Below, in pieces: positions 1,421 through 5,985 of a stretch of 64,000 bases of DNA. Origin of the DNA: Halomonas piscis. Its GTDB lineage: Bacteria > Pseudomonadota > Gammaproteobacteria > Pseudomonadales > Halomonadaceae. The DNA is taken from positions 186,001 to 250,000 of the forward strand of contig NZ_CP119391.1 of NCBI RefSeq assembly GCF_031886125.1, given 5' to 3'. Position 1 is the first letter of the stretch. Every line of letters begins with the position of its first letter. Both the position numbers and the translations under genes were made by a program. Under the pieces are notes generated by a model, which was not told the origin of the DNA, made no database searches, and saw nothing but the letters and a program-made list of their open reading frames with translations.

Positions 1421-1478
1421 AGACACCGCCGATGCCGTATCGGCTCCTGAAGCTGGCTGAGCCATAGGCGTAATCAGG

Positions 1479-3255
1479 TCAGCCGATGGCGCCACCGCCC
1501 CGACGGGTGATGACCACCAGCGACGGGCGTGGTGGCATGCCGTCCTGGAAGTCCGGCCAACGGGTTGCCGGGTCCTCGAAGGTGGAGGGGCGTCCCTTGC
1601 GGCCTGCATAGGCCTCGGTACCGTCGGCGGCCGGGTGCTGCACGGCGACGAACAGCGCGCCGTCGTCCGGGCTGAAGCAGGGGCCGCACATCTCGGCGCC
1701 CAGCGGTACGCGGAAGAACATCTTGCCGGTGCCGCGCCGCTCGCCCTGAGTCTCCAGGGCCCAGACGCCGTCGGCGGTGCCGGTCGTCGCCCAGTTGCTG
1801 CCCTGGTCGGTGGCCACCCACAATCGACCGCGATGGTCGATGGCACAGTTGTCCGGCGCGGCGAACCCAGCCGTTCTCGCTGGTGGCCGGGTTCCACAGG
1901 GCGCCCACCTCGGCGCGGGATGGATCGCCGCACTTGACCAGGATCTCCCAGCGGTCACGGCTGGCAGTGTGATCGCCGCCCTCGGTGACGACCTCGACGA
2001 TATGCCCGAAGGTATTGTCGGCGCGGGGGTTGGCGGCATCCACCTGGCCCGCGGTGCGCTCGGTGTTGTTGGTCAACATCACATAGACGCGACCGGTCTC
2101 GGGGTTGGCCTCGACGTCTTCCGGGCGATCCATTGGCGTGGCGCCCAGGGCGTCGCCGGCCAGCCGCGCCTTGATCAGCACCTCGGCCTGGCTGGCGAAG
2201 CCGTTCTCCGCGGTCAGCGGCCCCTGACCGTGGACCAGCGGCAGCCAGGTGACGCCGCCATCGGCATTGAAGCGTGCCACGTAGAGAGTACCGTGATCCA
2301 GGAGATCACGGTTGTTGGCGGGGCTGGCCGTATCGACCGGATCGCGGGTGACGAACTTGTAGAGGTAGTCGAAGCGCTGGTCGTCGCCCATGTAGACCAC
2401 CAGCCTGCCGTCCCCGGAGACCACGTTGGCTGCGGCTTCGTGCTTGAAGCGGCCCAGGGCGGTGCGCTTGATCGGCATTGAGGTCGGGTCCCGCGGGTCG
2501 ATCTCGACCACCCAGCCGAAACGGTTGGATTCAAAGGGCTCCTTGGCGATGTCGAAGCGGTCGTCGTAGCGGCCCCAGGCATAGCCCATGGCCGGGATGC
2601 CGTAGCGCTCGAGCAGCGCCGCGTTCGGGTGGCCGGCGGGGTCGCCCATGAAGTAGTAGTGAATGTTCTCTTCGCAGGACAGCACCGTACCCCAGGGGGT
2701 GGTGCCCCCGGCGCAGTTGTTGAGGGTGCCGATGACCTTCTTGCCGGACGGGTCGGCGCCGGTCTTCAGCAGCGCATCCCCGGCGGCGGGGCCGCTGATC
2801 GCCATCTCGGTGGAGCGCGGCGTGATGCGACGGTTGTAGCGGCTGTCCTTGAGATACTGCCACTTACCACCCCGGCGCTGGACCTCGACCACCGACAGGC
2901 CATGGGCGGCCTGCTCGATCTCGACCATCTCGCGGGTCAGGCCGGTGAAGTCATGCTCATCGAGAATCAGCACCTCGGCGTCATGGCCCTCGGCCACATG
3001 GTGGGTGGTGTCGACGCCATGGGCGATCTCGTCGACGGCGAAACGGTCGAGGCTGCCGCTTTCGGCGGCGATGGCCGCGGCAAGCGGGTTCATGGCGCCG
3101 ATCGCGGCCACCCCGAGCCCGGCAGTGCCGGCGTCCTTGAGAAAGCCGCGGCGCGAATAGCGGCGCTCGATGATCTCGCCGATCGGGGCGCTCACCGAGG
3201 GATTGCTGGGAATGTTCTCGGCCTCTTCGAAATAGGCTCGACGATTGAAAACCAT
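1479..3255 (-). pseudogene. phoX: phoX alkaline phosphatase, decayed second copy
   Basis: A near-identical but broken copy of the intact phoX at 15778-17754, in the opposite orientation. Two lesions are visible. About 72 codons are missing near 2963-2966: HDAEVLI is joined directly to LDEHDF, whereas the intact copy has a metal-site-rich stretch between them. A one-base expansion of a C run at 1866-1868 shifts the frame, so the conserved C-terminus (from about [12 protein letters not shown]) continues in another frame. The Tat-type RR motif at the N-terminus is retained. It is divergent from phnX and has its own Pho-box-like site. The lost segment makes activity very unlikely. Confidence 0.9.
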
Positions 3256-3470: not shown

Positions 3471-3719
3471 CTTTCCGTCATGCTGTGCCCTTAAGGTGGC
3501 TATCGCCATATGACTGCTGGGCGAGCCCACTGCACCATGTTGTGGGGAATATCGCGTCTTTTATCCCGCTACAGTTGAGGTGACATCCAATGAAACAACT
3601 TGAAGCGGTTATTTTCGACTGGGCCGGCACCGTCGTCGATTTCGGCTCCTTCGCACCTGGTATGGATTGACCCGTCAAGGGGTCGGTTGACTCTGCTACG
3701 TGTGATTGTCCTCAATGCC

Positions 3720-3910
3720 CACGGATCAGGAAGCGAGGGGCTATCAGCGACGGTGGATCTCTCTGGTATTCGTGGGTTGGTTACCGACCTGTCATCACTT
3801 CGTCGCGGAGCTACCCTGGTCTACGAGCGAGGGTCACCCCGCCCCGCAGGGCGGGGGCCTCATAGGAGCGTCAGGGGTTCTCCCACCGGCCCGACGCTCC
3901 CTGAATCGTA
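3720..3910 (-). ncRNA. Candidate bridge/seek RNA of the IS110-family element
   Basis: This is the non-coding end downstream of the transposase, on the same strand. In RNA order it has an 8-bp stem (GGAGCGTC/GACGCTCC), a GC-rich 8-bp hairpin (CCCCGCCC/GGGCGGGG), then two guide-like pairs. The first pair resembles the phnX target: complement of 3823-3830 reads TCGCTCGT against target TCGCACCT, and 3811-3815 CTACC equals the core plus right flank. The second resembles the joined element ends: complement of 3788-3797 reads TGATGACAGG against TGATGTCTGG, and 3762-3769 TCTGGTAT is an exact match. Target loop before donor loop is the known IS621 order. RNA boundaries are estimates. Confidence 0.55.
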
Positions 3911-3928
3911 GGCACTGAGGCGCGATCA

Positions 3929-5131
3929 TCATGCGGTGGCCCGGCTGCCGTGCGGTTTGCCCATCGCTTCGCAGGCAATCGCCCACAGGAAGCCGGCCAT
4001 TTCTCGCGCCACCGCCGTGGTGACTTGCTGCTTGGCCTTGCCCGTGGCAGCCAGGCGGCGGTAGCGCCCGCACAGTCGCTTCTGCGCCTCCCAGGCGATC
4101 GCCTGCACCGTTGGCGAGGTCTTCTCGGCGCGCTGCTCAATAATGCGCGTCTTGCGGGCCGGGAACCGGTAGCTCCAGGCCGCCTCCACCAGCACTCGTC
4201 GCACATGGCCATTGCCGGTCTTGGTGATGCCGCCCTGGCGCCGACTGCCCCCGCTCGAGTGCTCGCTGGGCACCAGGCCCAGGTAGGCCATCAGCTGGCG
4301 GGGCGAGTCGAAGCGACTGATGTCACCCAGCTCGGCCAGCACCGTCATCGCCGTGATCAGGCTCACGCCCCGCATCGCCTGAACGGCCTCGACCACCGGA
4401 GCCAGTGACCAGTTTGGTAACACCGCTCTCATCTGTTTTTCGAGACCCGCCACACGGCGCTGGGCATCTTTCACGTTGTCGACGTACTCCTGCAACACAA
4501 CCTGCTGAACCGGGGTGTCGAAGCGCACCGTCTCCAGCCAGCGGAAGTGTGCCGGTATCCACTTGCTCTTGCCGGGGTAGATCTTGCTGTGCCGCAACAA
4601 GAAGGCGTTGAGTCGCTGTCGGGCGCGGAGCTCAGCGGCTTTCATGTCTTCCCGGGCACGCGTCAGATCGCGAATCGCCTCCTGTTCCGGCGTTGGCACC
4701 CAGACCGGTGTCAGCTCTCCTGAGCGCGACAGGCGAGCCAGCATCTTGGCATCGCGACGGTCGGTCTTGATGCGATCCCCTGCGCGCTGAGGAATCAGCG
4801 TCGGGGCAACGACCTCGCAATCATGGCCGCTGGCCTGAATCTGGTGATAGACCCCGTAGCCACAGGGGCCAGCCTCGTAGCTGAATAACAACGGCTGCCC
4901 ATCGAAACGCTGACTCAGCTGACGAACCAGCTTATCGATGGCCTGAGGCTCGTTCGGAATTTCGCCGCGGAACTCGGGAGCTTGGCGTCTGGCCTCGGCG
5001 ATTGCCACGGAGATACTCGCCTTGTGCACGTCCAGGCCAATATAAGCGGCGTGGACGTTGCTGGCAGCACTAACCCGCTGGGCAACAGTGCGCTCGACAA
5101 TAGCTGGCTGAGTTGCGTTAGACTGTTTCAT
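3929..5131 (-). CDS. IS110-family transposase (DEDD + catalytic serine)
   Basis: A 400-residue recombinase. The N-terminal RuvC-like DEDD domain shows YIGLDVHKASIS, SYEAGPCGYGVYHQI and DRIKTDRRDAKMLARL; the C-terminal Transposase_20 domain shows MRGVSLITAMTVLAELGDI and the serine-containing GLVPSEHSSGG. Such enzymes insert circular elements at sites chosen by a structured RNA from the element. The frame is intact, so the element could still be active. Confidence 0.95.
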   Translation of the reverse strand: MKQSNATQPAIVERTVAQRVSAASNVHAAYIGLDVHKASISVAIAEARRQAPEFRGEIPNEPQAIDKLVRQLSQRFDGQPLLFSYEAGPCGYGVYHQIQASGHDCEVVAPTLIPQRAGDRIKTDRRDAKMLARLSRSGELTPVWVPTPEQEAIRDLTRAREDMKAAELRARQRLNAFLLRHSKIYPGKSKWIPAHFRWLETVRFDTPVQQVVLQEYVDNVKDAQRRVAGLEKQMRAVLPNWSLAPVVEAVQAMRGVSLITAMTVLAELGDISRFDSPRQLMAYLGLVPSEHSSGGSRRQGGITKTGNGHVRRVLVEAAWSYRFPARKTRIIEQRAEKTSPTVQAIAWEAQKRLCGRYRRLAATGKAKQQVTTAVAREMAGFLWAIACEAMGKPHGSRATA

Positions 5132-5985
5132 GACCTGCCTCCCTCAATAGTGGCTCTGTGTTGTTGCCCTACCTCAACATAACCCACGACGTTGAGGTGG
5201 GGCAGGTCAATCCATGATGTCTACCACTATTTTTGTAGAGGCTTTCAAGCAGGCGTTCGATTTCGATATCACCCTGGCTGAAGCTCGCGGCCCCATGGGT
5301 ATGGGCAAGTGGGATCACATCCGCACGCTCGGGAATACGCCGGCTATCGCAGAACGCTGGGTAGCCCGGTTTGGCCAACCGATGTCGGATACGGATGTAA
5401 GCGTCATCTACGATGCCTTCATGCCATTGCAAATTGCCGAGGTGAAGGAGCATGCGGCACTGATACCGGGCACTCTCGATGTCGTGACCTTGCTGAAGGA
5501 GCAGCAAATCCGCATCGGTTCCTGTTCCGGCTACCCGCGTCCTGTGATGGAGGCTCTAGCGCCTCTGGCCGCCGCCCAGGGGTTTGTACCTCAGAGCATC
5601 GTAGCTAGCGATGACCTCGAACCCGGAAGCCGCCCCGGACCCTGGATGGCGCTGCAGAATGTGATTGAACTGGGCGTAATGGATGTAGCCCGCTGTGTGA
5701 AAGTGGATGACTCGGCACCGGGTATCGAAGAGGGACGCAATGCGGGTATGTGGACCGTCGGCCTGGCTCTGTCCGGCAACGAAGCGGGATTCACTCTGGA
5801 CGGCTTCCTGGCCGCATCCGAAGACGAGAAGCAGCATGTTCGCCAACGCGTCGAAGCCAGGCTCAAAGCGGCCTCGGCCCACTATGTGATCGATACCATC
5901 GCAGATCTTCCCGGTGCGCTACAGGCAATCGGTCAGCGCCTGGCTGACGGCGAAAAACCCTGATTCAACCGAGACTTCCAATATC

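Follow-up and report, generated by a model that had tools for sequence, protein, structure and literature searches.

The insertion sequence and its site in phnX

The window, by which we mean the whole stretch of 64,000 nucleotides of Halomonas piscis DNA that was analysed, carries an insertion sequence that divides phnX into two pieces (Table 1). When these pieces (3590-3658 and 5223-5963) are joined at one core CT, a single open phnX frame of 269 aa is obtained, and this frame matches the phosphonatase model TIGR01422 with 325.8 bits over model positions 2-250 of 251; in the split gene the match covers positions 21-250. The ends of the element, placed at 3659 and 5222, are consistent with those of other copies in the same genome, as found by copy comparison. 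Judged by its sequence, the element is of the IS1111 type (IS110 family) and sits in phnX. Elsewhere in the window, the frame at 1474-3255, which presumably belongs to a PhoX-like protein, seems by eye to run on in a different frame between about 2039 and 1479, suggesting a frameshift.

The transposase is recognized by NF033542, the model of IS110 family RNA-guided transposases, with 276.9 bits (cut-off 140). It has the domain pair of the IS110 and IS1111 proteins, DEDD (PF01548) and Transposase_20 (PF02371), and carries the motifs GLDVHK at residue 32, KTDRRDAK at residue 122 and GLVPSEHSSG at residue 285, the last being its form of the GL-P----S(T)G motif. The solved structures that match it by sequence are named ISCro4 and IS621 transposase. 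Against NF052498, a model of the TIGR-Tas endonuclease, the product of 3929-5131 scores 37.6 bits, under the model's cut-off of 100. With 400 aa the protein is outside the 330-350 aa of the IS1111 group, a range that PMC11187229 describes as a compact spread of lengths and not as a requirement.

Two further traits of the IS1111 group are present. Subterminal inverted repeats, reported to measure 7-17 bp in the group (PMC11208160), are found here as GGTCAATCCAT and ATGGATTGACC, each of 11 bp, and the longer non-coding stretch downstream of tnp extends for 270 bp, from 3929 to the right end at 3659. The left side of the element has 91 bp of non-coding DNA.

Table 1. Coordinates, in the window, of the insertion sequence, the interrupted gene and the predicted RNA elements.
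Feature	Position	Strand	Remarks
Insertion sequence, IS1111-type, 1564 bp	3659..5222	-	length includes a single core CT out of those at 3657-3658 and 5221-5222
phnX 5' piece, through core CT	3590..3658	+
phnX 3' piece	5223..5963	+
Transposase/recombinase, 400 aa	3929..5131	-	PF01548 + PF02371; NF033542
Left subterminal inverted repeat ATGGATTGACC, after 7-bp extension AGACATC including core	5205..5215	-	direct reading
Right subterminal inverted repeat GGGTCAATCCAT, then 3-bp extension	3662..3673	-	direct reading
TTGACG	3673..3678	-	direct reading; would face CATCAT (5214-5219) over 17 bp once the ends circularise
Bridge RNA as modelled	3713..3917	-	target and donor loops enclosed by a long closing stem (3895-3917/3713-3735); predicted extent
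Target-binding loop domain, predicted	3807..3883	-	outer stem 3872-3883 with 3807-3818
Left target guide (predicted), RNA GCTC + core CT	3864..3869	-	GCTC 3866-3869, CT 3864-3865; weaker agreement one base outward
Apical hairpin between both target guides	3837..3856	-	helix 9: all 6 pairs changed on both sides
Right target guide (predicted), RNA CGTAG	3821..3825	-	core AG 3821-3822; T 3823; G 3824 strong, C 3825 weak
Donor-binding loop domain, predicted	3747..3806	-	stem 3796-3806 with 3747-3755
Possible left donor guide, RNA TGATGACAGG	3788..3797	-	direct reading, 8/10 to joined ends
Right donor guide (predicted), RNA ATACCAGA	3762..3769	-	8 bases identical to joined ends

A conserved RNA fold in the right end

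The earlier note had proposed that a bridge RNA with stable hairpins follows the transposase gene, and had suggested that its fold be compared with those of close relatives. The minus strand of 3659-3930 folds with -119 kcal/mol (z -4.44), and none of 200 shuffled sequences folds equally well. An alignment of 18 right ends was built from the window, L009, 15 loci taken from 70 and a copy on a plasmid of Halomonas sp. KG2; L032, L048, L053, L055, L056, L057 and L072, which are more distant, were omitted from this alignment (A1), and L028 was omitted from model R1. The fold is conserved in the 18 relatives: their consensus has 58 pairs, 27 of which show compensatory changes on both sides; in the outer stem of the target domain, two pairs swap CG and UA. 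The cells of the consensus are paired in 93.7% of cases, against 37-40% when the partners are slid, and none of 500 shuffles reaches any of five measures. Bridge RNAs (seekRNAs) are characterized by an RNA of conserved structure in the non-coding end, and this trait is present in the element. Rfam gave no family at the gathering score within the window. The order of the loops along the RNA, in which the target loop precedes the donor loop, and the presence of one same-sense and one complementary guide in each pair, both put forward in the earlier note, are supported. On these grounds the non-coding right end of the element is predicted to encode a bridge RNA.

Probable target guides located by covariation

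Guides were sought by comparing every position of the RNA with the flanks of its own element and with those of other elements, using 20,000 permutations. On the RE-side flank (17 elements) the agreement peaks at 3866-3871, where 4.41 of 6 bases agree with the own flank and 1.72 with the crossed ones, a difference reached by none of the 20,000 permutations; the next-best position shows a difference of 0.63 (37/20,000). On the LE-side flank (14 elements) the peak is at 3823-3828, with 2.79 of 6 own against 1.96 crossed (37/20,000), and a three-base scan places it at 3823-3825 (0/20,000). These figures are given per position and are uncorrected for the number of positions scanned, so that the LE-side peak is modest if taken alone, and secondary RE-side positions reach 30 and 37/20,000, values no higher than that of the LE-side peak. 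In the fold the two peaks face each other across a single internal loop.

The flanks of a larger set of relatives were then read base by base, with 39 sites and 21 guide sets in all (38 sites and 20 sets on the RE side, 29 sites and 17 sets on the LE side). Sites sharing the last 12 bases of the RE-side flank were counted once, which removed duplicates and also some distinct copies (L010, L167, L171 and L017 among them), only L017 being restored; the permutations take the guide sets as exchangeable, and the elements are related. Before the core, own-guide agreement from -1 to -4 is 0.94, 0.98, 0.90 and 0.85, against 0.32, 0.32, 0.37 and 0.32 for the guides of other elements, and each of these positions gives 0/20,000. 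Position -5 is weak (0.43 own against 0.24 crossed, 335/20,000), and no signal of guide agreement was found at -6 to -8 in the 38 sites and 20 sets. After the core, the first base hardly varies (1.00 own, 0.88 crossed, 1235/20,000), the second agrees in 0.87 own against 0.30 crossed (0/20,000) and the third in 0.50 against 0.31 (1049/20,000); the signal of the right guide therefore comes mainly from one base. Individual elements illustrate the agreement, RNA and flank being identical in L065 (TGACACT), L071 (GGGCACT), L075 (TTACTCT) and L117 (GCCGACT), and L019 has CGAAG in RNA and flank alike where the others end in TAG.

Segments that match both target strands and change with the target, the second trait of bridge RNAs and seekRNAs, are observed, and the better-supported target guides are predicted at 3864-3869 (left target and core) and 3821-3825 (right target and core). 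A few elements deserve separate mention. In L051 (2998-3212), an exception, the RE-side flank fits the guide exactly over ACCTCCCG but is shifted by 2 nt from the core; its transposase match has only 983 bases for residues 1-400. L015 and L017, from different Halomonas records, have near-identical RE-side flanks (GTTAAGCYCGACAGGCTCCT) and different LE-side flanks.

A bridge RNA with other guides had been read from the phnX copy in the earlier note, with the left target guide at 3823-3830 and the right one at 3811-3815. The matches that it quoted are literally there: the RNA of 3830-3823, TCGCTCGT, agrees with the target TCGCACCT at 6 of 8 bases, and 3811-3815 reads CTACC, a fit of 5/5. At phnX alone, 3864-3871 (ACGCTCCT against TCGCACCT) also scores 6/8, equal to 3823-3830; a single copy cannot separate the two placements and could mislead. 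The relatives do separate them. The six of the eight bases that entered the test (3823-3828) agree with the own RE-side flank in 2.77 of 6 and with other flanks in 2.59 (20 sets, 2491/20,000), which is no own-flank signal, and the four best positions of the LE-side scan do not include 3811-3815. In fact the greater part of the right target guide lies within 3823-3830, a stretch that fits the opposite flank, and the better-supported left target guide at 3864-3869 had been missed. We consider the original placement extremely unlikely. The comparison of guides with the flanks of other copies, which the earlier note had itself recommended, thus found covariation, at shifted guide positions; its caution that the short guides could be chance was justified for the target pair as then placed, which does no better than chance, and not for the guides as placed here, which covary with the targets.

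Stable GC-rich hairpins right after a gene could also form only the 3' untranslated region or the terminator of the transposase transcript, the matches being fortuitous, an explanation which would have to accommodate compensatory changes in 27 of 58 pairs and a left-guide agreement that none of 20,000 permutations equals, and to which we assign a very low probability. A bridge RNA (seekRNA) with its target guides at 3864-3869 and 3821-3825 is, by contrast with both explanations, very probably what this end encodes.

Copies in the genome and the shared target motif

Eight near-identical copies of the element, one of them split into two pieces (L008 and L012), and three copies at 79% are present in the same genome. 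Read in the orientation of tnp, the copies have the form flank-AG-ACAT...ends...CATACC-AG-flank, the core on the plus strand being CT. Beyond these 11 copies, the genome has 21 further IS110-like matches at 28-31% identity, including several multi-copy groups.

The eight near-identical copies have identical RNA at 3811-3830 and occupy different sites. Together with four copies that have the same guides in another genome, they provide 12 sites, which on the plus strand of the window mostly read G-C-T-C-CT-A-C: C at -3, the core CT and the A after the core are found in 12/12 each, G at -4 in 11/12, T at -2 and C at -1 in 9/12 each, and the C after the A in 10/12. The phnX site, GCAC-CT-AC, is one base off this motif. 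The earlier note held that the same 3811-3830 sequence in copies at different targets would refute a bridge RNA. Seven other copies in the genome do show this arrangement, and the bridge RNA is nevertheless not refuted, because the copies share a degenerate target motif that fits one RNA and because, among related elements, altered guides go together with matching alterations of the target.

Covariation alone is silent on the direction of cause, and the guide segments could have been copied from the flanks in past recombination, with the recombinase protein selecting the target. Against this, one guide set accompanies 12 different sites, which have little in common apart from the bases matched by the guides, and published IS1111 and IS110 RNAs have been experimentally reprogrammed (PMC11187229); we regard copying from the flanks as very improbable. 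One observation speaks against a guiding role of the RNA, which we prefer. The 10-mer CGCTCCTACG, which fits both guides, has seven uninterrupted occurrences in the genome (24 for the reversed pattern), and the empty sites of the eight main copies are all imperfect, none (0/8) being equal to it. Since perfect sites are uninterrupted and copies lie at imperfect ones, site choice appears to need more, or less, than the full guides.

Candidate donor guides and the joined ends

For the donor pair, the matches quoted in the earlier note are again literal, the RNA of 3797-3788, TGATGACAGG, agreeing with the joined ends TGATGTCTGG at 8 of 10 bases and 3762-3769, TCTGGTAT, being identical to them. In the comparison with relatives, the region of the right guide in the RNA agrees with the RE end in 21 of the 22 rows (of 24) that show both, as ATACCAG or ATATCAG, the exception being L028, whose RNA has ATCTCAG; this agreement amounts in essence to a single division between two groups. 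For the left guide, covariation gives no support to 3788-3797, and L020 is the one compared row with an exact match over TGATGTCT.

By the promoter consensus, the TTGACG at 3673-3678 is a possible -35 box, and a junction promoter TTGACG-17-CATCAT is predicted from the joined ends. TTGACA or TTGACG is found in 21 of the 23 related rows that cover the stretch, the exceptions being L080 and L115. A promoter has been reported at the circle junction of ISEc11 (PMC11187229), and the TTGACG-17-CATCAT of the present element is in line with it.

Relatives in other genomes and a second clade

The conserved RNA pattern matches two of 369 class-level genomes, our own genome included, and, since these matches were few, a covariance model made from the relatives was used on 250 genomes of the family, of which 11 match, again with our own genome included. 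The RNA region 3700-3900 has one match among 72,556 plasmid records, and a scan of viral contigs with the conserved RNA pattern gave no match. The papers that name both Halomonas and IS1111 concern other subjects, judged by their titles.

A second, more distant clade (L025-L084), mostly alphaproteobacterial by record title, has the same target loop, in the same register, with many different guides, and differs in its end repeats, ATGTTCGCC and GGCGAACAT. It comprises 30 elements with the RNA motif, 23 of which could be anchored, the seven without an anchor being omitted; the ends were located by comparing copies. An end motif assumed at first for this clade gave 0/22 hits, with 0/384 in the crossed control, because it was the wrong motif. 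In the four bases before the core the left guide agrees in 3.70 of 4 with the own flank and in 2.36 with the crossed ones (20 guide pairs, 0/20,000). The offset was set after the flanks had been viewed, so that this test is not fully blind, and the crossed comparison uses the same offset. For the right guide the agreement is suggestive only (2.13 of 3 own against 1.86 crossed, 15 guide pairs, 879/20,000).

As a tentative extension, which we hold to be possible though somewhat less than even in likelihood, these elements may form a sub-group of IS1111 extending from Halomonadaceae to Alphaproteobacteria, in which the RNA would effectively read a target of about 8 bp (4 + CT + 2), one RNA would scatter copies over many genes and single-base changes in the guides would redirect whole lineages. 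If a reading of about 8 bp holds, the 21 and 20 natural guide sets of the two clades would constitute a ready reprogramming code.

Proposed mechanism and comparison with known systems

In the mechanism that we propose, the bridge RNA would be encoded on the strand of the DEDD recombinase gene, downstream of it, and the long closing stem of the RNA would carry the target-binding loop, followed by the donor-binding loop. Next to the right end, the left guide (GCTC and CT, 3864-3869) would pair with one of the target strands, over the core CT; next to the left end, the right guide (CGTAG, 3821-3825) would pair with the opposite target strand, also over the core. In the donor loop, the RNA ATACCAG would pair with the ends of the element once joined. 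By means of the RNA the recombinase would unite the circular element with the target, recombining them at CT. The element ends, the fold, the covariation of guides and targets and the frame of the empty site, on which this scheme is built, are established by comparison of sequences; transcription, an RNA-recombinase complex, the circle, strand exchange and pairing as the cause of site choice are steps that we infer.

The RNA-guided recombinases of IS110 and IS1111 elements are candidate tools for programmable DNA insertion. Here the guides have been placed from natural data alone, where the reading of a single copy had misplaced them, and the guide-target pairs from two clades are directly testable. 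The results also suggest how the RNA of one transposon can interrupt different genes, in this case phnX. The element is an ordinary member of a recently described kind, and its guide map has been corrected.

Among the systems described, the seekRNAs of the IS1111 family (ISEc11, ISPa11, ISKpn4 and ISPst6; Siddiquee et al. 2024, PMC11187229) are located downstream of tnp, and their match to the top strand lies 5' of that to the bottom strand; the same order is found here, 3864-3869 being 5' of 3821-3825 on the RNA strand. The present element shares with them the downstream non-coding region, the subterminal inverted repeats, the 7-bp left extension, the order of the strand matches and the location of the target matches in one folded domain, and natural redirection between relatives is described for them as well (PMC11187229). 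It differs in being another element with other targets, in its 400-aa recombinase (330-350 aa in the group), and in having an RNA that is inferred from sequence.

The IS621 bridge RNA of the IS110 group (Durrant et al. 2024, PMC11208160) likewise has left and right target guides facing each other in a loop, an analogous donor loop and guides that each cover the core, and natural agreement between guides and targets, described in that paper as covariation among natural elements, is common to both. In IS621 the RNA is in the left end, whereas here it is in the right end, and the guides there have nine bases (LTG) and four bases (RTG), against an agreement here over the core and four further bases on the left, and over the core and about two on the right. 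The order of the matches to the target strands is also reversed with respect to IS621, which suggests an opposite orientation of the element with respect to CT. For IS1111 elements, the same paper places predicted bridge RNAs in the right end and gives a figure of 93.0% for the elements with such a prediction; the present element has this placement and the same general architecture (Durrant et al. 2024, PMC11208160).
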